NCBI GenBank assembly: GCA_018052455.1
Contig: JAGPNE010000006.1
Span: 2,389 to 37,420 of the forward strand
DNA: 35,032 bases
DNA from: Candidatus Fermentithermobacillaceae bacterium
GTDB lineage: Bacteria; Bacillota; Sulfobacillia; Fermentithermobacillales; Fermentithermobacillaceae
Direction of reading: 5' to 3'
Made by a program: the position numbers and the translations under genes. The first letter of the stretch is position 1; each line of letters begins with the position of its first letter. The notes under the pieces were generated by a model that searched no databases, was not told the origin of the DNA, and saw only the letters and a program-made list of their open reading frames with translations. This document shows, in pieces, positions 7,419 to 20,110 of the stretch.

Positions 7419-9818
7419 CTACCCCCGGTGAGAAGTCGTTTCTGTCTCCTCTTCATCGGGCTCAGAATCTATCTCACCACAAGGGTCTTCATGAACCTCA
7501 TTGCCGGCAACAGAAGGTTCCGGCAAACTTGTCTCTTCCTCCGGTTTCTCAGTGGATACTTCTTCTTTTGTTTCTTCTACTGGCTCCTCCATTGGTTCTT
7601 CCACTACGGCTTCTTCCACAGGTTCTTCTCCCTGTTCCGCAGGCTCTTCTACTACAGTTTCTTCCACCGGTGCTTCATTCGGTTCTACAGGCTCTTTGGG
7701 TTTCTCCTGCGGAAGTTCTTCAGTCGATTCTCTGGGTTGCGCTTCCATTGATTCTTTCTCGTGACTTTCCAAGAGAGTCTGGTCTGCTTGCTTAATGCTG
7801 AGGCTAATCTTCCTTTCGTCAGGTCTGGTTCTTAGCACTCTCACCATAACCTGGTCACCGGAGTTCACTACTTCCTCAGGTTTTGCAATGTGCTGTTGAG
7901 AAATCTCTGATATGTGAACAAGCCCTTCTACGCCAGGTTCAATCTGAACAAACGCTCCGAAAGGTGCGGTTCGCGTTACCTCACCTTTGATCTCGGCCCC
8001 TACAGGATACTTTGCCTCTACATCGTCCCACGGATCCGGAAGAACTTGCTTTCTTCCCAGTGAGATCCTGCCTCGCTCCTTGTCGACTTTCAAAACCTTG
8101 ACTTCTATCTCCTGACCTTCTCTGACTACTTCCGATGGATGGTTAACCCTTCCCCAAGAAAGCTCAGATATGTGCAAGAGACCGTCCACACCGCCTAGAT
8201 CGACGAATACTCCAAAGTCCGTTATACCTTTTACAGTACCCATCCTCACCTGACCCTCAGCAATGGTGTCCCACGTTTCCTTGCAAAGTCTTTCGTGGTC
8301 CTCTTCGAGAACGACCCTTTGCGATAAGATCACTCGATTTTTCGATCTATCCAATTCAAGGACCTTTAGTCTAAGAGTCTGCCCAACGTATTTAGAAAGG
8401 TCATTTACATATCCGCGCTCGACCTGCGATGCCGGGACAAAGGCCCTGACGCCTACGTCAACCACGAGCCCGCCTTTGACTTCTTGAACAACTGGAGCCT
8501 CAATGATGCTCTGCTCTCTATAGGCCTGTTCAAGGTCTTTCCAAGCCAACTCCTCATCAGCTTTTCTCTTAGAAAGTCGTAGGCTCCCATCGACTGAATC
8601 CACGTTTAGAACATAGACCATGATTTCGTCTCCAGGAGAGATATCGTAATCTCCAATCTCATCGCGGCGTTCGAGTTCCTGAGGCGAGATAATGCCTTCT
8701 GACTTGTACCCAACATCCACTAATGCTCCATTTTCATCCACAGACATGACTTTCCCTTCAACGATGTCGCCCTCACGTAGAGTCTTGAATGTCTCGTCGT
8801 ATAGTTCGGCAGTCGCTTTATCCTCCACTAATTCCGCAGTATCTTCTATGACAGCTTCGTCTGACGGAGCTTCGGGAGAAGTCTCAGGAGCTTGTGCGTC
8901 TGGTTGCTCAGTACCAGTCTCTTCTTGTCCATGTCCCTCATGTAGTTCCTCTGGCTTCGTTTCCAAGTTGGTTTTTTCTAGTTCTTCCACCTTGCCTACA
9001 ACCTCCTTTATAACCCAGTCGGGAGTAGACGCACCAGCAGTCACGCCTACAACATGTTTCCCTTCAAACCAAAGGGGTGACACATCTTTTGCCGACTCTG
9101 CTAAATAACATTCTACACCAAATTCCTGGACTATTCTAACTAGCTGCCCTGTATTGGCACTTGACTTGCCACCGATCACGAGAACAAGGTCGCAGTGCTG
9201 TGCCAATTCCTTGGCTGCTTCTTGCCGCAGCTCTGTAGCCGTACATACAGTATTCGATAGGTTTGCACATATACCCTTTTCCCGCAGGACGTCTAGAACC
9301 TTCTCAATATCTTCTCTCCTCGAGGTAGTCTGAGCAATAACTTCAAATGAGTCTTCCGTGCCTTCAAGCACAATTCGGTCCAAGTCAGACACTTCCCCAA
9401 TGCAAAGCGCTTCCTTTCCTGCGTATGACAGTATGGCTCTGACTTCGGGATGGTTCTCATCACCAAACACGATTATCCTTCTGCCTTCATTAGCAAATTG
9501 TCTGGCCTTATCCTGTGCTTTTTTGACAAACGGGCAGGTTGCATCCACGATTTTTTCTACGGCTGACGAGAGCATTGCTCTTTCGTCAGCTCCCGTACCA
9601 TGAGTCCTTAGGATCAATGTGCCCGATGACACTTGACATGGATCCGTTGCCACCTTAACACCCCGTTCGCAGAACAAATCCACCACGACGGGATTATGAA
9701 TGATGGGCCCTAGTGTCCATATTGGATAAGGGCCTTCCTCCAAGGCTCTTTCTATCATTTCTATTGCTCGTTTCACTCCGAAGCAATATCCCATATGTCT
9801 GGCTAATTCTATCTGCAT
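7419..9818 (-). CDS. ispH: IspH fused to four S1 RNA-binding domains
   Basis: The 799-residue product joins two proteins. Residues 1-280 are 4-hydroxy-3-methylbut-2-enyl diphosphate reductase (IspH/LytB), the last step of the non-mevalonate isoprenoid pathway. Cluster cysteines are at 12 (GYCFGVKRA), 95 (DATCPFVKK) and 192 (NTVCTAT), with conserved His41 and His123. An acidic linker (about 280-345) leads to four S1 domains at roughly 346-420, 430-505, 522-592 and 607-680, resembling ribosomal protein S1. The last 110 residues are a Glu/Pro/Val-rich low-complexity tail. The IspH-S1 fusion is known from Clostridia; the long acidic tail is less usual. The ATG at 9818 overlaps the plsC stop by one base (TAATG), indicating coupling. 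Confidence 0.95.
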
Positions 9819-11313: not shown

Positions 11314-12087
11314 ATGAACTTGATTGATATTAATAGCGATATTGGCGAAGGCTTCGGGCGCTGGACACTAGGCGATGATGACCAGATTCTCGCACACATA
11401 ACTTCAGCTAACATAGCGTGTGGTATTCACGCAGGGGATCCTCTCATAATGGACCATACTGTTGAGACATGCAAGCGAAGATCAGTTTCGGTCGGTGCCC
11501 ATCCCGGCTTCCCCGATATACAGGGGTTCGGACGCCGCAATATGAGCATGTCACCCAAAGAAATCGAGTCTTACGTTCTCTACCAAGTAGGCGCGCTAGA
11601 CGCTTTCGCTCAAAGCAAGGGAGTAAGCCTGACACACGTCAAACCCCATGGAGCGCTGTACAACATGGCTGCAGTAGATTTGGACGTAGCTCTTTCGATA
11701 GCACGGGGAATAGCCAGGGCAGGCCGAGATTTGATTATGGTGGGCCTAGCCGGATCGCTTATGCTAGACGCCGCCAAACAAGTCGGAATTCCAGGAGCAA
11801 GCGAGGGCTTTGCCGATCGTTCCTATAACCCAGACGGAACGCTAGCCCCAAGAGGTACACAGGGCGCAGTCATAGAGGATACAGATGAAATAGCAAGAAG
11901 GGCCGTGCAGATGGTGAAAGACAAAGTAGTTCTCACTCCTAATGGGCATTACATACAATTACAAGTCGATACTATATGCATACACGGAGACACGCCCGGG
12001 GCCGCATGTATCGCAAAAACTGTGATGGAGCGTCTGATTGAAAACGGCTGCAAAGTTGTTCCCCTTTGTCAGATGGTAGGGAGGTAA
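11314..12087 (+). CDS. pxpA: 5-oxoprolinase subunit A (LamB/YcsF family)
   Basis: PxpA works with PxpB and PxpC to hydrolyse 5-oxoproline (pyroglutamate) to glutamate with ATP. The 257 residues match the LamB/YcsF family: IDINSDIGEGFG at the start, SANIACGIHAGDP, VGAHPGFPD with GFGRR, HVKPHGALYN, EGFADRSYNPDGTL, and ICIHGDTPGA near the end. The ATG at 11314 follows AGAAGGGGG at 7 nt. It is the first gene of a two-gene plus-strand operon inserted between minus-strand housekeeping genes. The stop is 4 nt from the next start. No transporter gene accompanies it. Confidence 0.95.
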   Translation: MNLIDINSDIGEGFGRWTLGDDDQILAHITSANIACGIHAGDPLIMDHTVETCKRRSVSVGAHPGFPDIQGFGRRNMSMSPKEIESYVLYQVGALDAFAQSKGVSLTHVKPHGALYNMAAVDLDVALSIARGIARAGRDLIMVGLAGSLMLDAAKQVGIPGASEGFADRSYNPDGTLAPRGTQGAVIEDTDEIARRAVQMVKDKVVLTPNGHYIQLQVDTICIHGDTPGAACIAKTVMERLIENGCKVVPLCQMVGR

Positions 12088-12091
12088 CAGT

Positions 12092-13765
12092 ATGAGTATC
12101 GAGCCGCTCGAATTTGGTCTACTGGGAGATGGCGCACTATCTGTCAAATTAGGCAACACAATTTCTGAAGAGATAAACGATGCGGTCCTTTATCTCTGTG
12201 ACGAAATAGAACGACTCCAGTTGCCTGGAATCTCAGAAATTCAGCCTGCATATTCGTCTCTAGCGGTGCATTTTGATCCGACTATCATCTCCCACTCACA
12301 CATCAAGAAAGTGACCTCTTCTTTGTGGGATCATCCCAAGAAACGCGCATTGTCGCAGCTAAAGCCTAATGTGGTTGAAATACTGGGTCATTACGGAGGC
12401 AACCATGGACCGGATCTTGCCTGGGCGTCGGAGTATCTCGGGATGCCTGTAGAGGAGATAATTAAGAGGCACTCGTCCCGACTTTACAGAGTGTATATGA
12501 TAGGTTTCACGCCAGGTTTTCCATACCTCGGAGGAATGGACGAGAGCATCTCACTTCCAAGGCTTCCTGAACCAAGGAAACTAGTGCCAAAAGGTTCGGT
12601 CGGTATAGCGGGCAATCAAACAGGCATTTACCCGTGGGATACACCCGGCGGGTGGAGAATTGTTGGTCAGACAACCCATAACCTCTTTTCCCTTGAAATG
12701 GACCCACCCTCTCTACTAAGGCCAGGGGATTACGTCAAGTTTGTTCCCGCCCAAGGTTCGACTGAAGAGACAGGCTTCACGACAACTCAGCCAGGTGACC
12801 TCACTCAGCAGGCTGAAGGACCCTACGCTACTACGCAACCACACAGTCCAGAAATGCAAGCGAAATGGTCGGTAGACGGGCTTTTTGTTGATAGTCCGGG
12901 TATGCTCACTATTGTCGTAGATAAAGGCCGATTCGGTTACCGCAAGTTCGGTGTGCCAACCTCGGGGGCTGCGGACGTGCGATCCTACGCTCTAGCAAAC
13001 ACTCTATGCGGCAACAACTCAAACGAAGGGTGTCTTGAATTCACCATACAGGGACCTACTTTAGTTGCCCAGATGGATCTAACTGTAGCTGTAACAGGAG
13101 CTCCTGCCCCAGTCAGCGTAGATGGGCAGCAGGTACCTTCAGACGCTCCTATTTTCCTTAAAGAAGGACAGACTCTAGATATTGGCAGAACTGCCCTAGG
13201 ATTGCACGGGTATGTAGCAATTGCTGGAGGTATACAGGTTCCGGCAGTTCTCGGCTCAAAATCCACTTATCTAAAGAGTGGATTTGGTGGCTACTTGGGA
13301 AGACAACTGAGATATGGGGATACCTTGAGGATTGGGCCTGCTCCTTCCTACACCTCGATTCTACAGAGTCACAAAACCAACCAGAAGAAAGTTAGGCCTT
13401 TGGATTTTCGAATGCTCGGAGAACCGTGCGTTTTTCTGCGTATATCGCCGGGTCCTGAGAGTTCTGAACCTATATTGTCAATCTTGACAAGCGCAACGTA
13501 CCAGATTAGACAAGATTCTGATCGCATGGGCTTGCGATTGGAGGGGCCTAGACTACTAGAAAAAGGAGCAGACATAATATCTGCTCCTGTGGTTCCCGGA
13601 ACCGTACAAATAGCTTCTGATGGAAGACCTATGCTGCTCCTTTCAGATAGCCAAACAACAGGCGGCTACACAAGGGCAGCAACAGTGCTGACTACTGATC
13701 TACCTCTTGCATCACAGCTTAGGCCAGGCAGCAAGGTACGATTCAGGCTGACCTCTAACCCATAA
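12092..13765 (+). CDS. pxpBC: Fused 5-oxoprolinase subunits B and C (PxpB-PxpC)
   Basis: The 557-residue protein joins both remaining 5-oxoprolinase subunits in one frame. Residues 1-225 are PxpB/KipI-like (YMIGFTPGFPYLGGMDE, VPKGSVGIAGNQTGIYP, TPGGWRIVGQT). A roughly 40-residue Thr/Gln-rich linker follows. Residues 265-557 are PxpC/KipA-like (VDKGRFGYRKFGVPTSGAAD, GCLEFTIQGP, YVAIAGGI, QDSDRMGLRLEGP, TTGGYTRAATVL). KipI and KipA homologues also control sporulation kinase in Bacillus, but linkage to pxpA favours 5-oxoprolinase. The ATG at 12092 has a strong GGGAGGTAA site overlapping the pxpA stop. Confidence 0.93.
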   Translation: MSIEPLEFGLLGDGALSVKLGNTISEEINDAVLYLCDEIERLQLPGISEIQPAYSSLAVHFDPTIISHSHIKKVTSSLWDHPKKRALSQLKPNVVEILGHYGGNHGPDLAWASEYLGMPVEEIIKRHSSRLYRVYMIGFTPGFPYLGGMDESISLPRLPEPRKLVPKGSVGIAGNQTGIYPWDTPGGWRIVGQTTHNLFSLEMDPPSLLRPGDYVKFVPAQGSTEETGFTTTQPGDLTQQAEGPYATTQPHSPEMQAKWSVDGLFVDSPGMLTIVVDKGRFGYRKFGVPTSGAADVRSYALANTLCGNNSNEGCLEFTIQGPTLVAQMDLTVAVTGAPAPVSVDGQQVPSDAPIFLKEGQTLDIGRTALGLHGYVAIAGGIQVPAVLGSKSTYLKSGFGGYLGRQLRYGDTLRIGPAPSYTSILQSHKTNQKKVRPLDFRMLGEPCVFLRISPGPESSEPILSILTSATYQIRQDSDRMGLRLEGPRLLEKGADIISAPVVPGTVQIASDGRPMLLLSDSQTTGGYTRAATVLTTDLPLASQLRPGSKVRFRLTSNP

Positions 13766-13784: not shown

Positions 13785-14831
13785 CTACAAGAAGCGTTTT
13801 AGCTTCGGGTTATCTATGATACCCGGGATACGACCACGTTTTGCAACGGGTTTGCCTTCAATCTCTTTTATGTCCATAGTCATATCAATAGGCCTGGCAG
13901 AAGAGATGTAGCTCCCCACGCCGAATGAATCGGCACCAACCTGGGACAATTTGGCTATCCGCTCAGGATCTAGTCCGCCTGAAACGAAGATCTGAACGTG
14001 CCCAAACCCCGCCAAATCCAAACGTGCTCTTGCTTCCTTTACAAGATCATCTGTTACTCCACCGCGTTCGGAAGGAGTATCCAATCGAATGGCACCCATG
14101 TCATCTCCAAGGACTTCTGCAACTCTAAGCGCTTCCTCACATTCGTCCTTGAAAGTATCTACGAGAATTGTCCGGGGCGCATCTTTTGGCATGTGCGTAT
14201 CGTACGCTACAGCAGCCCTAACGGTATCACCCATAATCAGGACAAGAGAATGGGGAATGGTGCCCACAGGTTCAAGGTCCAAAAACTTGGCCCCCAAAAT
14301 GCACGCGGCTCCATTGGCCCCGCCTATAACAGCAGCTCGTTCCATTACCGGGGCTACCGCTGGATGTATGTGCCTTGCGCCAAAGCAAAAGAACGGCTTG
14401 CCACCGGCTGCATCCTTGCACTCACTGGCTCTTGAGGCCCAGGCAGACGAACTGGCCAAAATCCCCAAAAGCGCAGTTTCATATGGACCGAAAACTGAAT
14501 AGGGGCCCTTGATCCTCAAGACCGGCTCTTTAGCTTGAAAAGTTTCGCCCTCTTCAATACCCCATGCTTCTACGGGCAACCCGTTGAGCAAATACAGACA
14601 CTCTTTCATACCAGCCAAAACCCCCGGTCTACTCGGGAATATTTCGGCAGTTACGTTAGTATCCGATTTGCCCTCTTTGCTTAGTATCTCATTGGTACGG
14701 ACAAAGTACACGTCCGCAGTTGCGCCTGATATGATCTCTTCGTGAGTAGCAGAAAACAACCTATTCTTCTCAGGGGCAAATTCCCTTACATCATCAACTG
14801 TGTGGAACTTGATCTTATGGTTTTCTGACAT
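13785..14831 (-). CDS. pncB: Nicotinate phosphoribosyltransferase
   Basis: The enzyme joins nicotinate to phosphoribosyl pyrophosphate in NAD salvage. The 348 residues include FSATHEEIISGATADVYF, EIFPSRPGVLAG, FGARHIHPAVAP, GTIPHSLVLIMGDT, VDTFKDECEEAL, IRLDTPSERGGV, and IFVSGGLDPERI with DSFGVGSY. This is the short NAPRTase form found in many Clostridia and archaea. An in-frame ATG at 14876 exists, but ATG at 14831 is preceded by GGAAGGAGAAG at 4-5 nt, so I chose it. It overlaps the rluB stop by 17 nt and is the last gene of the ridA-led run. Confidence 0.93.
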   Translation of the reverse strand: MSENHKIKFHTVDDVREFAPEKNRLFSATHEEIISGATADVYFVRTNEILSKEGKSDTNVTAEIFPSRPGVLAGMKECLYLLNGLPVEAWGIEEGETFQAKEPVLRIKGPYSVFGPYETALLGILASSSAWASRASECKDAAGGKPFFCFGARHIHPAVAPVMERAAVIGGANGAACILGAKFLDLEPVGTIPHSLVLIMGDTVRAAVAYDTHMPKDAPRTILVDTFKDECEEALRVAEVLGDDMGAIRLDTPSERGGVTDDLVKEARARLDLAGFGHVQIFVSGGLDPERIAKLSQVGADSFGVGSYISSARPIDMTMDIKEIEGKPVAKRGRIPGIIDNPKLKRFL

Positions 14832-15591
14832 GGTCTTCTCCTTCCTGCCCTGCTCGCGCCGTATTGTACAGATCATGAATTTCCTTAGGGTGCAGATAAC
14901 GCCACTTGCCCTGCTCTAGACCCGAGAGGCTCAGAGGCCCTATTCTAGTTCGTGTGAGCCGCTTGACATCGTAGCCTAAAGCTAAACACAGTTCCTTTAC
15001 TAGGTGTTTCTGCCCTTCGTGCACACCTATTAGGATTCGTTTGCTATTGCGTTTTGTCTCTAGAAACCTAGCATAATCAGGGTATACCTTTTTGCCTCCA
15101 ATAACCATACCCGATAACAAACGATCTAGATCATCCCTCTTCGCAGGCCCCGTGAATTCGACTACGTACTCCTTTACCACTTCGTATCGGGGGTGTGTGA
15201 GCAGCTGAGCCAAGGCACCGTCGTTTGTAAGCAGGACCAATCCCTCTGCGTCCTGGTCCAGACGACCGACGGGAAATACACGTTCCTTTACCTGAGAAAC
15301 CAGCGATACTACCGTTGGCCTGCCATGAGGATCTGAACAAGATGACAGGTAACCTCTTGGTTTGTTCAGCATTATGTAGACATAAGGCTCTCTCCCAGAG
15401 ACTTTTCGGCCACTAACGCAAACCTCGTCTTTACCGGGTAGAACCTTTTCCCCCAAAACAGCAACCCTGCCGTTTATGAGCACCTTTCCTTGTTCGATTA
15501 GTTCGTCTGCGTGACGCCGCGAACAGACTCCAGACTGAGCCAAGAATCTAGACAGCCGTATCGGAGTCGCCAAGCGTTCTGAGTCGTACAT
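14815..15591 (-). CDS. rluB: 23S/16S rRNA pseudouridine synthase (RluB/RsuA family)
   Basis: The product isomerises uridine to pseudouridine in rRNA. An N-terminal S4 RNA-binding domain (IRLSRFLAQSGVCSRRHADELIEQGKVLING) is followed by the catalytic domain with MLNKPRGYLSS and FPVGRLDQDAEGLVLLTNDG, which holds the catalytic Asp, then HEGQKHLVKELCLALGYDVKRLTRTRIG. The open frame begins at 15690 but would overlap the P-loop gene by 77 nt. ATG at 15591, just before the S4 domain, gives a normal 258 residues. Position between the P-loop gene and pncB suggests cotranscription. Confidence 0.93.
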   Translation of the reverse strand: MYDSERLATPIRLSRFLAQSGVCSRRHADELIEQGKVLINGRVAVLGEKVLPGKDEVCVSGRKVSGREPYVYIMLNKPRGYLSSCSDPHGRPTVVSLVSQVKERVFPVGRLDQDAEGLVLLTNDGALAQLLTHPRYEVVKEYVVEFTGPAKRDDLDRLLSGMVIGGKKVYPDYARFLETKRNSKRILIGVHEGQKHLVKELCLALGYDVKRLTRTRIGPLSLSGLEQGKWRYLHPKEIHDLYNTARAGQEGEDHVRKP

Positions 15592-15613
15592 AAGCACCAA
15601 CTCTTCAAGATCT

Positions 15614-16690
15614 TCACACGTACCGCTCCAACCATGAATATAAAATGCCCGGGCCCTCAAGGACAATGTCGGTGCACGGGGCCTTCGCATGATTTCTTAC
15701 TTCTCCAAGAAACATCCTAGGGTCAACCTTGCCAGCCACAAACTTGCCGTTATCTAGCTGAGAGAGTGTGTAAGGATTTAGGGTAACTCCCAACAATCGA
15801 GTGCTATCCTTGACAGCAACCCCACAGCCAACCTGAGAAAGACGGTCTAAGACCCGTTCCCACAATATGACTTCTCCCGACAATAATAGCATGATTGGGT
15901 GGTCAAAAACGAACAAGACGGGCATATGCCCATCCCCTGTATTGCTGCCAGAGCTACCTAATGCCTCAAGGATTTCAAGAAATACACCCGGGTTTACAAT
16001 CCCTCTTATGTACACAGTACGCTGCTTGCCATCGTCTGCCAGATGTGCTCCAACCTTGCGACCATGCCCTTGAAGAAAGAGGCCATTTGGTAGGGTTATA
16101 GCGTTTGCCCCCTCATATGAATCTCCAGTCCCAGGTCTGTCTATGGGCGTATCAGGTAACTTAGGCAAGCTCATTACCCTCCAGATTGCATTCATCTCCT
16201 TGGCGAGTTTTCTCGGATCGCTGCTTCGCGTAGCACCTGTGGCCAAGATCAACGAATCAGCTGCCACCATGGGTGAAAGCCTCGAGAACGCGCCGTCCAA
16301 TAATACTGCACAATCCAAAGGAGCAAACTCTATGACCGAAATCAGATCTTCCGTGTTGGTAGGGCCTGCCAAGACAACCTTACCGGTAGAACGAGATATT
16401 CCAACATATATAGGGCCCAGAGCACAATCCACACCAGTATACCTTAGGTTTTCAAAGTCTGCCGGCGAAGATTCTAGCAAGGATAAGGCACTTGCCACCG
16501 TCGCTCCCTTAGGCACAAAAATCCTAGGCTTGGGAAGACCCGTTATGTTGTCAAAATCCTCTCCGTCATAGCCTATACTAGTGAGAAAAACGTCTTTGCC
16601 ATTCGACTCAAAGAATTTCGTCGTCTCAAGAAGAGTAGTAGTCTTGCCCGTGTTCTTGGCGGTGCCTGCAACACCAATAACAATCCGCAT
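15614..16690 (-). CDS. P-loop NTPase, possible reactivase/chaperone of the B12 aminomutase-like protein
   Basis: The 358-residue product begins MRIVIGVAGTAKNTGKTTTL, a Walker A-like loop (residues 9-18, with Thr where Gly/Ala is usual before x4GKT). CAVLLDGAFSRLSP (about 131-144) is a candidate Walker B, and SLILATGATRSSDP follows. No other catalytic motif is recognised, and no transmembrane segment is obvious. B12-dependent aminomutases and mutases need partner ATPases or GTPases to exchange damaged cofactor. Some lysine 5,6-aminomutase clusters carry dedicated reactivase genes (KamB/KamC), and this protein could be of that sort, but I cannot confirm homology. The ATG at 16690 has GGAGGAAC at 5 nt. 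It follows the B12 gene by 90 nt in the same orientation. Confidence 0.6.
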   Translation of the reverse strand: MRIVIGVAGTAKNTGKTTTLLETTKFFESNGKDVFLTSIGYDGEDFDNITGLPKPRIFVPKGATVASALSLLESSPADFENLRYTGVDCALGPIYVGISRSTGKVVLAGPTNTEDLISVIEFAPLDCAVLLDGAFSRLSPMVAADSLILATGATRSSDPRKLAKEMNAIWRVMSLPKLPDTPIDRPGTGDSYEGANAITLPNGLFLQGHGRKVGAHLADDGKQRTVYIRGIVNPGVFLEILEALGSSGSNTGDGHMPVLFVFDHPIMLLLSGEVILWERVLDRLSQVGCGVAVKDSTRLLGVTLNPYTLSQLDNGKFVAGKVDPRMFLGEVRNHAKAPCTDIVLEGPGILYSWLERYV

Positions 16691-16780
16691 CTAGTTCCTC
16701 CACCGTTTCTTTGTATGGAATTTCTGGTTCAATTAGAAACTCTATCTAGTAAATGTCCTTTTTCAGTCAACTACAAGACT

Positions 16781-18628
16781 CTACATTATTTCGGTTACCG
16801 TATCTTTACCAGCTCGCCCTGGGTACGCTCCATCGTCTTTGTCTCCCAAGATCCCTTCGTACAGTGACGCGACAAAGTCATCGCGTTCGGACAGTCTTTT
16901 CAAGACATTTACGATATCATCTCTGAGCCTAGAAGCCATCTCGTCTGCCTCCGAAGTAGGGGATATACCCCCGTGTCCGAAAAACCTAAGAGCGGCTGCG
17001 GTAGCCTTAAGAGTGTCGATACGTGCAGGCACAGTAATGGGACCGCCAGCGTACGCCTCGTCAGAAGATGCTATCGTAACAGCCTTTGCGCCCGAGTTAA
17101 GAGCAAGAGCGGCGTGAAGGGCAGTCATCACTGATGACTGACACCGGTCCTGGGTCTGCGTAAGAAACCCTACAGGGGCACCAGGCCATATGGGTGCATC
17201 AATTATGGACGAAAGAGTCCTCATTTTGGCCACATTGAAATCAATGAAATTGTCATCCATTATGCCCGTAATAATGGCCTCTGGCGAATTAGCAAATAGT
17301 GGTTGAAGTAACGGTTTGCCCCCAAGTAGCACGCCGGCAGTAGCTACTACCAACATTCCTGCAAAAGCCTTCGCAGCGGGAACCCCACACAGTTCTTCAT
17401 TCGTGACAACGTCATATGGCAGATTGTATTTGGCCGCTAGCTTCATCGACTCTACGCCGTCTACCGCTAACCTTTCTGGATCGGTTCCTGCACCCAGACT
17501 CCCATAAACTATGTTTACTTTTGTAAGATCTGCACCCGAAAGATGTGCTAGCACCACTGTTTCCGGTGTGTTGAGCCCCCTATGGGCCCGAACCTGCCAG
17601 AGAGTCCCAGGAAGAAGAGCGCTCTTGATCAATCTCAGGTTATCTAGCGTAATGACAGTTCCATCGTGTTGGTGACTCCAGGCTTGTTCTAGGAAGCCTT
17701 CAGTCCTTGCTCCCCATGAAGGATCAAAATGGACCACGCCCCGGGCGCCCCATGCAACTGAAATGATACTGTGATATGCATCCATTTCTGGACAACCTGT
17801 GCCATACTGCACAAGCACGTTGTAGTTGTTGAGTATGTCTTGCGCTATTGGAAAAATCATGTCGTTCTTCTTGTCTCTCAACATGGCGATTTCTTTAATC
17901 TCTTTCTGCGTAAGAAGCCTGGTATGTGAAACAGGCTCTCCTGTTTCATACCAGCGCCTAACCTCTCCCGAGCACAGCCTTGCATATTGCCCCCGAAGAG
18001 TCTCCAATTCCCTCGTCTTGTTTTCGCGCCTTGCTTCTTCGATCTCCAACCTCAACTCAGCTCTTTTTATGCCCGGGCTTGTCCTTCTCGATGCCCAGTC
18101 AATTAGCTGTTGAGCCACTCGAACGCAAAGATCTCCGACTTCTTTGTCGAAGAACTCATAGGTAAATCCCTGTGTCAGATCGCTTTTCTCCTGTGGCCTG
18201 CTTCCTGCTAAAGATACAATTTCCTTTCCTTCTACGTAATCTACAGCTGCCTCCGCAGGAGCATCTGGTCCGAACCCCGCATCAAATCCCAACTCTTGTG
18301 CCATCTCAGGTCGCATGCTGAGTCCGCCCACAACAAGTTTGGTGGTATGCCTAAGGCCAGAAGCGTCACAGAGATCCACGAATTTCGCGAGTATTTCAGA
18401 TGTGCCATAGCTCAGAGCACGGCTTACCATCAAAAAATCAGGCCTTTCCTCAAGTGCTCTGGCCACGATTTCTTCAGGAGTAAGGTCTGGCGGTAGTAAC
18501 GTGACCTCATGCCCCCGATCGAGCAGTTTTCGTCTTATCAGTTTTAGACCGACATCATGAACAGGGTCTAGAGGTGCGAGTAGTACTCTTTTGGGGTGAG
18601 CTACATCTTTACTCGGTTGACCCAACAC
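16781..18628 (-). CDS. B12-binding aminomutase-like protein (N-terminal cobalamin domain + KamD/OraE-like barrel)
   Basis: Residues 13-135 of this 615-residue protein look like a cobalamin-binding Rossmann domain: VLLAPLDPVHDVGLKLI, FLMVSRALSYG, and VVGGLSMRP. The rest resembles the alpha subunit barrel of lysine 5,6-aminomutase or ornithine 4,5-aminomutase. WGARTEGF (305-312) with LDNLRLIKSAL (328-338) matches a TTEGF/NFRLMREAL stretch recalled from KamD, and EGILGDKDDG near the end matches its Gly-Lys-Asp-rich C-terminus. Those enzymes move an amino group using adenosylcobalamin and PLP. Here the B12 domain is at the N-terminus, and its histidine motif is D21-x2-H24-x2-G27, one residue longer than the usual DxHxxG. 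The GTG at 18628 has AGGAGGT at 5 nt and overlaps the 82-aa gene by 20 nt. Substrate unknown. Confidence 0.65.
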   Translation of the reverse strand: MLGQPSKDVAHPKRVLLAPLDPVHDVGLKLIRRKLLDRGHEVTLLPPDLTPEEIVARALEERPDFLMVSRALSYGTSEILAKFVDLCDASGLRHTTKLVVGGLSMRPEMAQELGFDAGFGPDAPAEAAVDYVEGKEIVSLAGSRPQEKSDLTQGFTYEFFDKEVGDLCVRVAQQLIDWASRRTSPGIKRAELRLEIEEARRENKTRELETLRGQYARLCSGEVRRWYETGEPVSHTRLLTQKEIKEIAMLRDKKNDMIFPIAQDILNNYNVLVQYGTGCPEMDAYHSIISVAWGARGVVHFDPSWGARTEGFLEQAWSHQHDGTVITLDNLRLIKSALLPGTLWQVRAHRGLNTPETVVLAHLSGADLTKVNIVYGSLGAGTDPERLAVDGVESMKLAAKYNLPYDVVTNEELCGVPAAKAFAGMLVVATAGVLLGGKPLLQPLFANSPEAIITGIMDDNFIDFNVAKMRTLSSIIDAPIWPGAPVGFLTQTQDRCQSSVMTALHAALALNSGAKAVTIASSDEAYAGGPITVPARIDTLKATAAALRFFGHGGISPTSEADEMASRLRDDIVNVLKRLSERDDFVASLYEGILGDKDDGAYPGRAGKDTVTEIM

Positions 18629-18857
18629 AATCTACCTCCTGACTGTACCATCTATAGTCCGCGGAGGGTCTATATACATAGCCCCTTAATCTTATCCTTA
18701 CGCCAGGTCCACCCATTTCACAGGATACGACGTCCGCATCTTCGAATCCCAGTTCGGCCATGAGTCTTAGTCCCAGGCTCTTTCCTTCTTCTAGATCATT
18801 GCAAACAATGAATGTCTCAAGGTCGCATCCGTCAAGAATCCGATCTCTGACTGACAT
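18609..18857 (-). CDS. Unknown 82-residue protein coupled to the aminomutase-like gene
   Basis: I do not recognise this protein. It is 82 residues, soluble, mildly acidic, with GKSLGLRLMAELGFEDADVV (helix-strand-like) in the middle and GPGVRIRLRGYVYRP toward the end. It has no obvious cofactor motif and does not resemble the ornithine aminomutase small subunit that I recall. It is probably real. ATG at 18857 has GAGGGGG about 8 nt upstream. It overlaps the regulator stop by 26 nt and the B12 gene start by 20 nt, a pattern expected for coupled genes. A small partner subunit of the B12 protein is a reasonable guess. Confidence 0.65.
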   Translation of the reverse strand: MSVRDRILDGCDLETFIVCNDLEEGKSLGLRLMAELGFEDADVVSCEMGGPGVRIRLRGYVYRPSADYRWYSQEVDCVGSTE

Positions 18858-19620
18858 TCTCGATTCCCCCTCGAGGGCCCATCATATCTGCCCAGTATGT
18901 ATTGACGTCTTTTATCACGTTGTCTATGTGAAAAGCCATCGCCTGTCTTGCTCCTTCATCGTCTCTTTCGAGGACTCTGGCAAATATCCGTTTGTGGTCT
19001 TCTACCATTCTCGAGCCGATTTTTGCTCTTATATACTCAAGCGCTCGTCCAACCTCAGGGTCGTGGTAGATCACGTCAAGCGCACTTAAGAGGACTTTGT
19101 TTTTTCCGGCTTCTGCCAATGCTCTGTGAAACTCTACGTCTTTTTCTACTCCAGAACTCCCTAAGGTCAGCAATTGCTCATGCTCCTTGATTATCGTCTC
19201 AATGTTCCTGAGGTCTTTGTCTGTTGCATTCTGCGCAGCCAGGTACGCTGTTTCTGTCTCGATAGCTCTACGGGCGACTAAGACGTCTATCAGTTCTTGT
19301 CTTTCACTAATCCTCAGACTCTCTACAAAAGCTGTATGGGTCCTGCTCTGAGCCTTCGCATTGAGCCACTCCGTGAGTGCTTTGTCGCCCAGAGGAGTGA
19401 TGACTCTTCCTACACGACCTTCGGCGCGCACGTACCCCTTGTCCTCAAGGTCCCTAAGAATTCGTCCCGCCGTAGCCTCTGACACAGATGTCCCCTCTTG
19501 CACCATCTGGCGACTGAGATTCCATGCGCCTATAGGCGTCGAAGATCCACTCAGAATCTTGAGGGCTGTATAATGGGTGTCATTACAATCGATGCTCAGA
19601 GTCATCCCTCCTACTGGCAT
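18832..19620 (-). CDS. Transcriptional regulator with winged helix (NrpR/RNase R-like) and FCD ligand domain
   Basis: The C-terminal half (about 100-240) is an FCD domain of the FadR type. Asp161, His165, His209 and His231 occupy the metal-ligand positions, with the typical 22-residue spacing between the last two. FCD domains bind carboxylic acids. The N-terminal half (about 16-80) is not the usual GntR helix-turn-helix. ALKILSGSSTPIGAWNLSRQ followed by GRILRDLEDKGYV and RVGRVITPLG looks like the winged helix of NrpR or RNase R regulators. It likely controls the operon it lies in, in response to a substrate or product of the B12 enzyme. The start is uncertain: ATG at 19620 or ATG at 19605, both poorly spaced from AGGA-type sites. 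Confidence 0.82.
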   Translation of the reverse strand: MPVGGMTLSIDCNDTHYTALKILSGSSTPIGAWNLSRQMVQEGTSVSEATAGRILRDLEDKGYVRAEGRVGRVITPLGDKALTEWLNAKAQSRTHTAFVESLRISERQELIDVLVARRAIETETAYLAAQNATDKDLRNIETIIKEHEQLLTLGSSGVEKDVEFHRALAEAGKNKVLLSALDVIYHDPEVGRALEYIRAKIGSRMVEDHKRIFARVLERDDEGARQAMAFHIDNVIKDVNTYWADMMGPRGGIENVSQRSDS

Positions 19621-19648
19621 TCCTACTATAATTCACAGGTGTTACAAC

Positions 19649-20110
19649 CTATTCCTTCAGCAAAACCACGGCCTCGACCTCAACGCAGCAGTCAAGAGGT
19701 AGTGAGGCAACTCCAACCGCCGACCTCGCATGCTTCCCTTTGTCGCCAAACACCTGTACGAAAAGTTCAGAAGCTCCGTTAACCACTTTTGGCGCGTCGG
19801 TAAAGTCTGGTGTTGATGCCACAAAACCTACCAACTTAACTATGCGTTCTACGTTATCCAATGAGCCTGCAACGCTCTTGACAGCTGCCATGATGTTGAG
19901 AGCACACTGTTTCGCTTCTTGGTACGCATCTTCAAGAGTAACGTCGCTGCCGACCTTACCTTTCACACGGAGTTTCCCGTCTCTGAATGGAGTCTGTCCC
20001 GAAACATAAACCCAATTGCCGGCTCGCACTGCGGGCACATAAGCAGCTACGGGCGCAGGAACCTCTGGAAGCGACAGGCCAAGTTCAGTCAGTCTTTCTT
20101 CAATCTTCAT
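19649..20110 (-). CDS. ridA: RidA family enamine/imine deaminase
   Basis: RidA proteins hydrolyse reactive enamines and imines released by PLP enzymes. The 153-residue product has YVPAVRAGNWVYVSGQTP near the start and HARSAVGVASLPLDCCVEVEAVV at the end. Arg129 and Glu144 keep the 15-residue spacing of the active-site pair in Escherichia coli RidA. The N-terminal lead of about 25 residues is longer than in E. coli RidA and fits the LPxxxxPVAxYVPAVR subgroup. ATG at 20110 follows GGAGGTAGG. It is the first gene of the run leading to the aminomutase-like gene, which fits a PLP-dependent enzyme nearby. Confidence 0.93.
   Translation of the reverse strand: MKIEERLTELGLSLPEVPAPVAAYVPAVRAGNWVYVSGQTPFRDGKLRVKGKVGSDVTLEDAYQEAKQCALNIMAAVKSVAGSLDNVERIVKLVGFVASTPDFTDAPKVVNGASELFVQVFGDKGKHARSAVGVASLPLDCCVEVEAVVLLKE

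Follow-up and report, generated by a model that had tools for sequence, protein, structure and literature searches.

What is made by the five consecutive minus-strand genes found at positions 15614-20110 of a 35,032-nucleotide (nt) stretch of the genome of a Candidatus Fermentithermobacillaceae bacterium (hereafter, the window), and what reaction does the cobalamin (B12)-binding protein in their midst perform? An earlier note, made from the sequence, had proposed that the five genes encode an undescribed aminomutase system relying on both B12 and pyridoxal 5'-phosphate (PLP). All five open reading frames (ORFs) were recovered. In head-to-tail order, they encode a 153-residue RidA/YjgF-family imine-enamine deaminase, the first gene of the operon (19649-20110; PF14588, 5.4e-24; PF01042, 2.8e-21), a 262-residue FCD-domain transcription regulator (18832-19620; PF07729, 3.5e-21) with a winged helix of the HTH_12 type and not of the GntR type (PF08461, 1e-6), a protein of 82 amino acids (aa; 18609-18857), a 615-aa protein containing a B12-binding domain (16781-18628) and a 358-aa P-loop NTPase (15614-16690). 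In the interpretation favored here, to which a probability of roughly 0.57 is assigned, the 82- and 615-aa proteins constitute a two-subunit adenosylcobalamin (AdoCbl)-dependent radical isomerase of permuted aminomutase architecture that probably works without PLP and is maintained by a reactivase of its own. As such, the B12 enzyme of aminomutase fold, its partner, the NTPase and the regulator of the earlier proposal were all retained, while its PLP component was not.

The overlaps described previously were confirmed, with the regulator gene overlapping the 82-aa gene by 26 nt and the 82-aa gene overlapping the B12 gene by 20 nt. The GTG start codon of the B12 gene is preceded, 5 nt upstream and within the 82-aa gene, by the Shine-Dalgarno sequence AGGAGGT. 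An inner ATG at 19605 in the regulator gene, likewise having its own Shine-Dalgarno sequence, is probably the start used, as judged from the sequence, and would yield a protein of 257 aa. No Pfam model scored above its cut-off for the 82-aa protein, for the NTPase or for any part of the 615-aa protein outside the B12-binding domain.

That B12-binding Rossmann domain spans approximately residues 13-135 of the 615-aa protein (PF02310, 2.2e-13) and is closest in sequence to the corresponding domain of KamE from D-lysine 5,6-aminomutase (LAM; KamD/KamE). In the set of homologues considered throughout (62 loci from 59 genomes), His24 and Gly27 of the motif DPVHDxGLK were present in all 62 copies, matching the DxHxxG 'His-on' motif; His24 is the predicted cobalt ligand. 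The C-terminal portion, approximately residues 150-610, corresponds to a TIM barrel resembling the LAM alpha subunit. When a profile of this barrel (residues 140-615, 62 sequences) was compared with those of other enzymes using hhalign, KamD gave a score of 54.7 (probability 87.6, 415 columns), followed by OraE of D-ornithine 4,5-aminomutase (OAM; 35.8), glutamate mutase E (26.7) and methylmalonyl-CoA mutase (16.3), with 42 unrelated families providing a background that reached a maximum of 31.6. An AlphaFold2 (AF2) model of the protein (predicted local distance difference test [pLDDT] score, 89.7; predicted template modeling score, 0.85) was next compared with known structures using Foldseek. 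The best match was 1xrs_A (E=3.9e-16), followed by 8t0v_A and 9q1a_C, all of which are LAM alpha subunits. Indeed, ranks 1-6 were all held by LAM or OAM, with glutamate mutase (6h9e_B, E=1.6e-9) and CoA mutases coming only thereafter. By profile and modeled fold, therefore, the nearest relative of the barrel is the LAM alpha subunit, in agreement with the resemblance to lysine 5,6- or ornithine 4,5-aminomutase proposed earlier. A better alignment to methylaspartate mutase E (i.e., glutamate mutase E), named in the earlier note as an outcome that would speak against it, was not seen.

Two other assignments of the 615-aa protein were considered in light of these comparisons. Membership in the glutamate mutase or methylmalonyl-CoA mutase families is very unlikely. 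Glutamate mutase does follow LAM and OAM in the fold ranking, and an invariant SxDEA sequence (D523-A525) resembles, by eye, the adenosyl-ribose glutamate motif of these enzymes, but both profile scores lie inside the background, profiles and fold alike rank LAM first, neither PF06368 nor PF01642 matched the protein, and PF06368 found no match anywhere in the genome from which the window is drawn. A role as a corrinoid carrier or sensor, such as a methyltransfer protein or the partner of a B12-responsive regulator, is more improbable still: the Rossmann domain also resembles those of corrinoid methyl carriers such as 1y80, yet here it is joined to a complete barrel of LAM type in which numerous polar residues are invariant, and is accompanied by an OAM-type dimerization subunit and a reactivase, features expected of AdoCbl mutases but not of methyl carriers. 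The pocket of the barrel comprises the highly conserved residues H300, D302, R308, R347, H349, R350, K370, Y375, N410, E411, E412 and E524.

The 82-aa protein, which the earlier note had listed as a small partner of unknown nature, is indeed a partner, although its nature can now be given. While the match to PF16554 (OAM_dimer) was marginal in the window (E=0.28) and better in a relative (0.022 in locus L126), hhalign aligned the protein to the N-terminal part of KamE with a probability of 92 and a score of 44.5, with the 42 unrelated families scoring no higher than 20.5. In a fold search of 350,542 PDB chains, the seven best matches to the AF2 model of the protein (pLDDT 84) were all OAM or LAM, with a best root-mean-square deviation of 1.5 Å over 54 columns and probabilities of 0.99-1.00; the E-values were modest (0.012 and up), given the small size of the domain. 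A search of the same protein against PDB chains by sequence returned only chance matches. In one genome (G265), a single tblastn match to an OraE query extends from the small gene into the beginning of the B12 gene, with two stops in between. The 82-aa protein is thus the aminomutase dimerization domain, here existing as a separate subunit, such that the order of domains is dimerization domain on one chain and B12-binding domain followed by barrel on a second.

The NTPase was scored by the NF052386 model (reactivase_KamB) at 160 bits (6.1e-47) over profile positions 1-301, below the cut-off of 210. Still, NTPases occupying the same position in three related loci exceeded this cut-off, namely those at L126:10559-11632 (255 bits), L119:7392-8495 (250 bits) and L144:9335-10411 (226 bits), and these support a placement of the window protein in the KamB family as well. 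Its Walker A P-loop, GTAKNTGKTT, is intact, with each position being conserved in at least 95% of 57 cassette NTPases. Of the NCBIfam models, only KamB gave a score, with no match to the MeaB model being obtained. The earlier suggestion that the NTPase could reload the cofactor of the B12 enzyme is hence supported to the extent of probable family membership, pointing to a predicted reactivase. The three NTPases above the cut-off adjoin the B12 enzyme considered here, and that of locus L144 comes from a genome (G176) with no match to KamD; NF052386, an equivalog model, probably misnames them as lysine aminomutase reactivases. KamC was also considered as an obligatory partner. In eight cassette-containing genomes lacking KamD, a KamC query returned only partial matches, nearly all to ORFs of MutS/MutS2 size; the rejection of KamC on these grounds is weak, since full-length KamC likewise escaped this query in genomes that do contain KamD.

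To what extent these genes travel together was addressed by surveying their neighborhoods. The related contigs correspond to metagenome-assembled genomes of Candidatus Fermentithermobacillaceae. In a first search, the full-length 615-aa protein was present in 21 of 40 relatives. Searches with the barrel alone gave 34 positive genomes among 154 from the class, two of these represented by fragments, and 39 among 398 sampled across the phylum, i.e., about 10%; in the latter sample, barrels from outside the window's own order were 47-58% identical. The enzyme is widespread among fermenting bacteria. Counting genes within the fetched flanks of the 62 loci, the 82-aa gene immediately precedes the B12 gene in 61, and the NTPase gene is found in 57, with at least one of the remaining loci being cut by the end of a contig. 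With such numbers, the grouping is far beyond chance, and the prediction that these genes would be conserved as neighbors in relatives was upheld. The FCD gene is present in 54 loci when all ORFs are counted, and a RidA homologue in 32. Three genes that do not adjoin the cassette in the window recur elsewhere, namely those encoding a PLP enzyme (family c5; 42 loci), a DUF6917 protein (36 loci) and a flavin adenine dinucleotide (FAD) enzyme (family c6; 33 loci). Outside the closest kin, the usual operon reads permease (family c9), FCD regulator, DUF6917, RidA, c5, c6, small gene, B12 gene and NTPase, with slight variation in order between loci. At a single locus, L116:8343-12105 (G230), the B12 gene has DUF6917 and c5 immediately before it and no small subunit gene at its side, with the NTPase gene likewise missing from the surroundings.

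Whether the cassette could simply be the lysine or ornithine enzyme of a reduced genome was considered by examining the host genome (G000; 1.54 Mb, 92% complete). Outside the contig of the cassette, a lysine cluster comprising KamA, KamB, KamC, KamD, KamE and Kdd was found, all scoring above NCBIfam cut-offs. Likewise outside that contig, an ornithine cluster includes OraE, OrtB and a GlmL-type Or-4 protein above their NCBIfam cut-offs, adjoined by OraS-, OrtA- and Ord-like genes. Because both clusters are complete and lie on other contigs, the reduced-genome explanation was discarded, and the cassette is a third, paralogous system. Moreover, as the lysine and ornithine pathways each possess mutases of their own, it is likely that the substrate of the cassette differs from both, as had been suggested. 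It is accordingly extremely unlikely that the cassette encodes an isozyme of LAM or OAM acting on the same diamino acids. Such an isozyme would account for the same fold and accessory parts, but not for the existing clusters, which include dehydrogenases and a thiolase of their own, for the absence of kamA, kdd, ortAB and ord next to the cassette among the neighbors examined (as reported earlier), for a PLP site that is not conserved or for the behavior of curated models. Specifically, NF052384 (LAM alpha) did not match the 615-aa protein, while NF052385 (LAM beta; 44 bits, cut-off 280) and NF040743 (OraE; 26 bits, cut-off 800) matched only its B12-binding domain and hence no part of the barrel. 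By contrast, the host's own LAM and OAM pass these subfamily models. Attempts to read the substrate from neighboring genes revealed no general pattern, with a single clade having speE/speB-like genes downstream and two loci having dapF in the vicinity.

The PLP site was next considered residue by residue. In LAM, PLP is held by Lys144 of the beta subunit, together with barrel residues S238, Y263, N299, R184, R268 and G187-S189, while in OAM the PLP lysine is Lys629 (PMC3958899). In KamE and OraE of the genomes studied here, the PLP lysine falls 11 residues past the B12 histidine. In the cassette family, this position is occupied by Leu35 in 62 of 62 copies, and hhalign placed the LAM/OAM PLP lysine in an insertion which these 62 copies lack. 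In the barrel, LAM G187-S189, the PLP-phosphate loop, and N299 align to gaps, and R184, S238 and R268 are replaced by D302, R350 and A380, respectively. The only PLP contact clearly kept is the stacking tyrosine Y263, matched by the invariant Y375. The hhalign confidence of these pairs ranged from 4 to 9 of 9. Loss of the canonical PLP site, as read from these alignments, is strongly indicated for the lysine and well, if not finally, for the barrel, where the mapping of R184 and S238 is uncertain. With the canonical lysine and the PLP-phosphate loop missing in all copies, the dependence of the B12 enzyme on PLP, as first proposed, could not be upheld, and it is, on balance, doubtful that the reaction is that of an aminomutase. 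As the PLP anchor that defines the LAM/OAM family was sought and not found, the cassette enzyme was kept out of that family. We consider it about twice as probable that the enzyme works without PLP as that it requires PLP.

Several points weigh in the opposite direction. To our knowledge, all members of the LAM/OAM family are PLP-dependent. The alignment between barrel and LAM, at 19% identity, is a distant one, and it is this distance that renders the mapping at R184 and S238 uncertain. K370 is invariant in the 62 copies, terminates a predicted strand of the barrel and precedes the stacking tyrosine by five residues, while K420 is present in 61 copies; either might bind PLP in a manner other than the canonical one. 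Finally, AdoCbl binding and activity of the enzyme are predicted from sequence and model. The LAM-like fold, the invariance of K370 and Y375, the place of K370 in the barrel and the retention of a dimerization subunit and a KamB-type reactivase speak for a rival reading, possible if rather unlikely, in which the cassette encodes a true PLP- and AdoCbl-dependent aminomutase that acts on a new substrate; its PLP lysine would have been transferred from the B12-binding domain to the barrel (K370 or K420), with R347 and R350 taking over the phosphate from the lost loop. Against this stand the loss of both hallmark PLP elements, i.e., the lysine of the Rossmann domain and the GQS phosphate loop, and the presence in the genome of c5, which supplies the pathway with a PLP enzyme of its own. 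K29, also invariant in the cassette family, was considered as the relocated lysine and set aside: methylmalonyl-CoA mutases carry a lysine at the same place (HDRGAK), so that K29 more probably belongs to the B12 motif.

Compared with known systems, the cassette enzyme is, in its parts, a variant of the aminomutase scaffold, with its two subunits descending from lysine 5,6-/ornithine 4,5-aminomutase stock. LAM (1xrs, 8t0v and 9q1a) offers the best fold and profile match to the barrel, as well as a similar B12-binding domain, a dimerization domain and a KamB-family NTPase in the same operon. In LAM, however, KamE carries the dimerization and B12-binding domains and KamD the barrel, whereas the cassette fuses the B12-binding domain ahead of the barrel and leaves the dimerization domain separate; the cassette moreover lacks the PLP lysine, the PLP-phosphate loop, KamC and the kamA and kdd partners. 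OAM (OraE; 3kow, 3kp0 and 3kp1) contains the same three domains, but in a single chain in the order barrel, dimerization domain and B12-binding domain. Lys629 of OAM has no counterpart in the cassette, beside which neither OraS nor a GlmL-type accessory protein was seen. Glutamate mutase (methylaspartate mutase E and S) is similarly an AdoCbl-dependent TIM-barrel mutase that works without PLP, yet it lacks an OAM-type dimerization domain and shows profile similarity to the cassette enzyme no greater than background. Glutamate mutase uses GlmL and is not known to use a KamB-type NTPase. The G-protein chaperones of CoA mutases, MeaB and IcmF, likewise are P-loop NTPases encoded beside a B12 mutase, although the NTPase of the window scores against KamB only. 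A search of a literature collection found no description of the cassette system, and a search on DUF6917 yielded nothing describing it. In terms of chemistry, the enzyme may be new, and its reaction is probably so.

The genes found beside the cassette in relatives offer clues as to the surrounding pathway. The c5 protein is an unnamed fold-type-I PLP enzyme of 490 aa, the sole and weak relatives of which are DgaE/SelA and sulfhydrylases, while the DUF6917 gene was recognized by Pfam in the operons of relatives. Other genera of the window's family have DUF6917 and c5 as a pair oriented divergently to the cassette. In the genome of the window, the pair, with the two genes overlapping by 4 nt, is found at C15:74908-76862 (L216:12909-14863), on the same contig and some 53 kb from the cassette. 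As such, the pathway is split in this genome and not lost. The FAD enzyme c6 and the permease c9 were not found in this assembly, which is 92% complete. The earlier note had counted RidA, as a scavenger of imines from PLP enzymes, toward the aminomutase system. RidA is better explained as serving c5, a separate PLP enzyme of the same pathway that adjoins the cassette in most relatives and lies about 53 kb away here. The linkage of c5 and RidA suggests an imine as an intermediate in the further processing of the product. The permease c9, represented at L126:5977-7362 by a protein of about 461 aa that is apparently membrane-embedded, has homologues in 17 loci and no Pfam or NCBIfam match. At L126:12425-14710, as well as in L118, L121 and L124, a second c6 copy lies just downstream of the cassette, after c10, an FAD/NAD electron-transfer protein resembling sulfide and dihydroorotate dehydrogenases; this arrangement suggests that c10 and the second c6 copy form a redox pair.

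In the PLP-free isomerase favored here, His24 would hold the cobalt in the 'base-off' state and the barrel would close over the cofactor, with homolysis of the cobalt-carbon bond then generating the adenosyl radical. The Arg/His-rich pocket (R347, H349, R350, H300, R308 and K370) suggests a carboxylated substrate, probably derived from an amino acid, that would be rearranged by the radical. With the PLP lysine and the PLP-phosphate loop missing, this would most likely proceed without PLP, in a manner nearer that of glutamate mutase than of an aminomutase. Cobalamin inactivated in the course of catalysis by suicide inactivation would be swapped out by the KamB-like NTPase. The product would then pass to c5, the resulting imine being hydrolyzed by RidA, with the FCD protein sensing substrate or product. 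While the fold, the paralogy, the pairing of the subunits, the conservation of the genes and the loss of the canonical PLP site were established computationally, the cobalt chemistry, the reactivation, the independence of PLP, the reaction, the substrate and the order of steps are inferred. An even chance is given to the cassette representing a class of AdoCbl radical enzyme not reported before, in which a cut-up and re-ordered LAM/OAM scaffold has dropped PLP, catalyzes another kind of radical rearrangement, is served by a KamB-type reactivase of its own and belongs to an undescribed, widespread anaerobic pathway of amino acid metabolism.

Beyond the NTPase, the minus-strand run continues into two further genes. 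The first, which overlaps the NTPase gene, encodes an RsuA/RluF-type pseudouridine synthase (14815-15690; TIGR00093, above cut-off), seen in 28 of the 62 loci and a housekeeping passenger. The second and last gene of the co-directional run encodes a nicotinate phosphoribosyltransferase (13785-14876; NF006415, 474 bits, cut-off 243), seen in 15 loci and probably a passenger as well. Elsewhere in the window, IspH (LytB) is fused to ribosomal protein S1 in a 799-aa protein with several S1 repeats (7419-9818), and the 5-oxoprolinase components PxpB and PxpC are fused in a single protein of 557 aa (12092-13765), adjoined by PxpA (11314-12087). No Rfam elements or tRNAs were found in the window.

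Known families of AdoCbl enzymes are small in number and have been studied in depth. One that occurs in about one-tenth of the sampled genomes of a phylum and has no assigned reaction thus represents a real gap. The KamB findings call for caution in annotation, as the model for this reactivase also takes in proteins serving another enzyme. At the same time, by presenting the same barrel, dimerization domain and reactivase with no PLP anchor, the cassette offers a natural experiment in which those parts of the aminomutase machinery that serve B12 radical chemistry are separated from those that serve PLP. Finally, the cassette brings together RidA, DUF6917, the unnamed PLP enzyme c5 and the FAD enzyme c6 in a single testable pathway, the substrate of which could be revealed by the unnamed transporter family c9.

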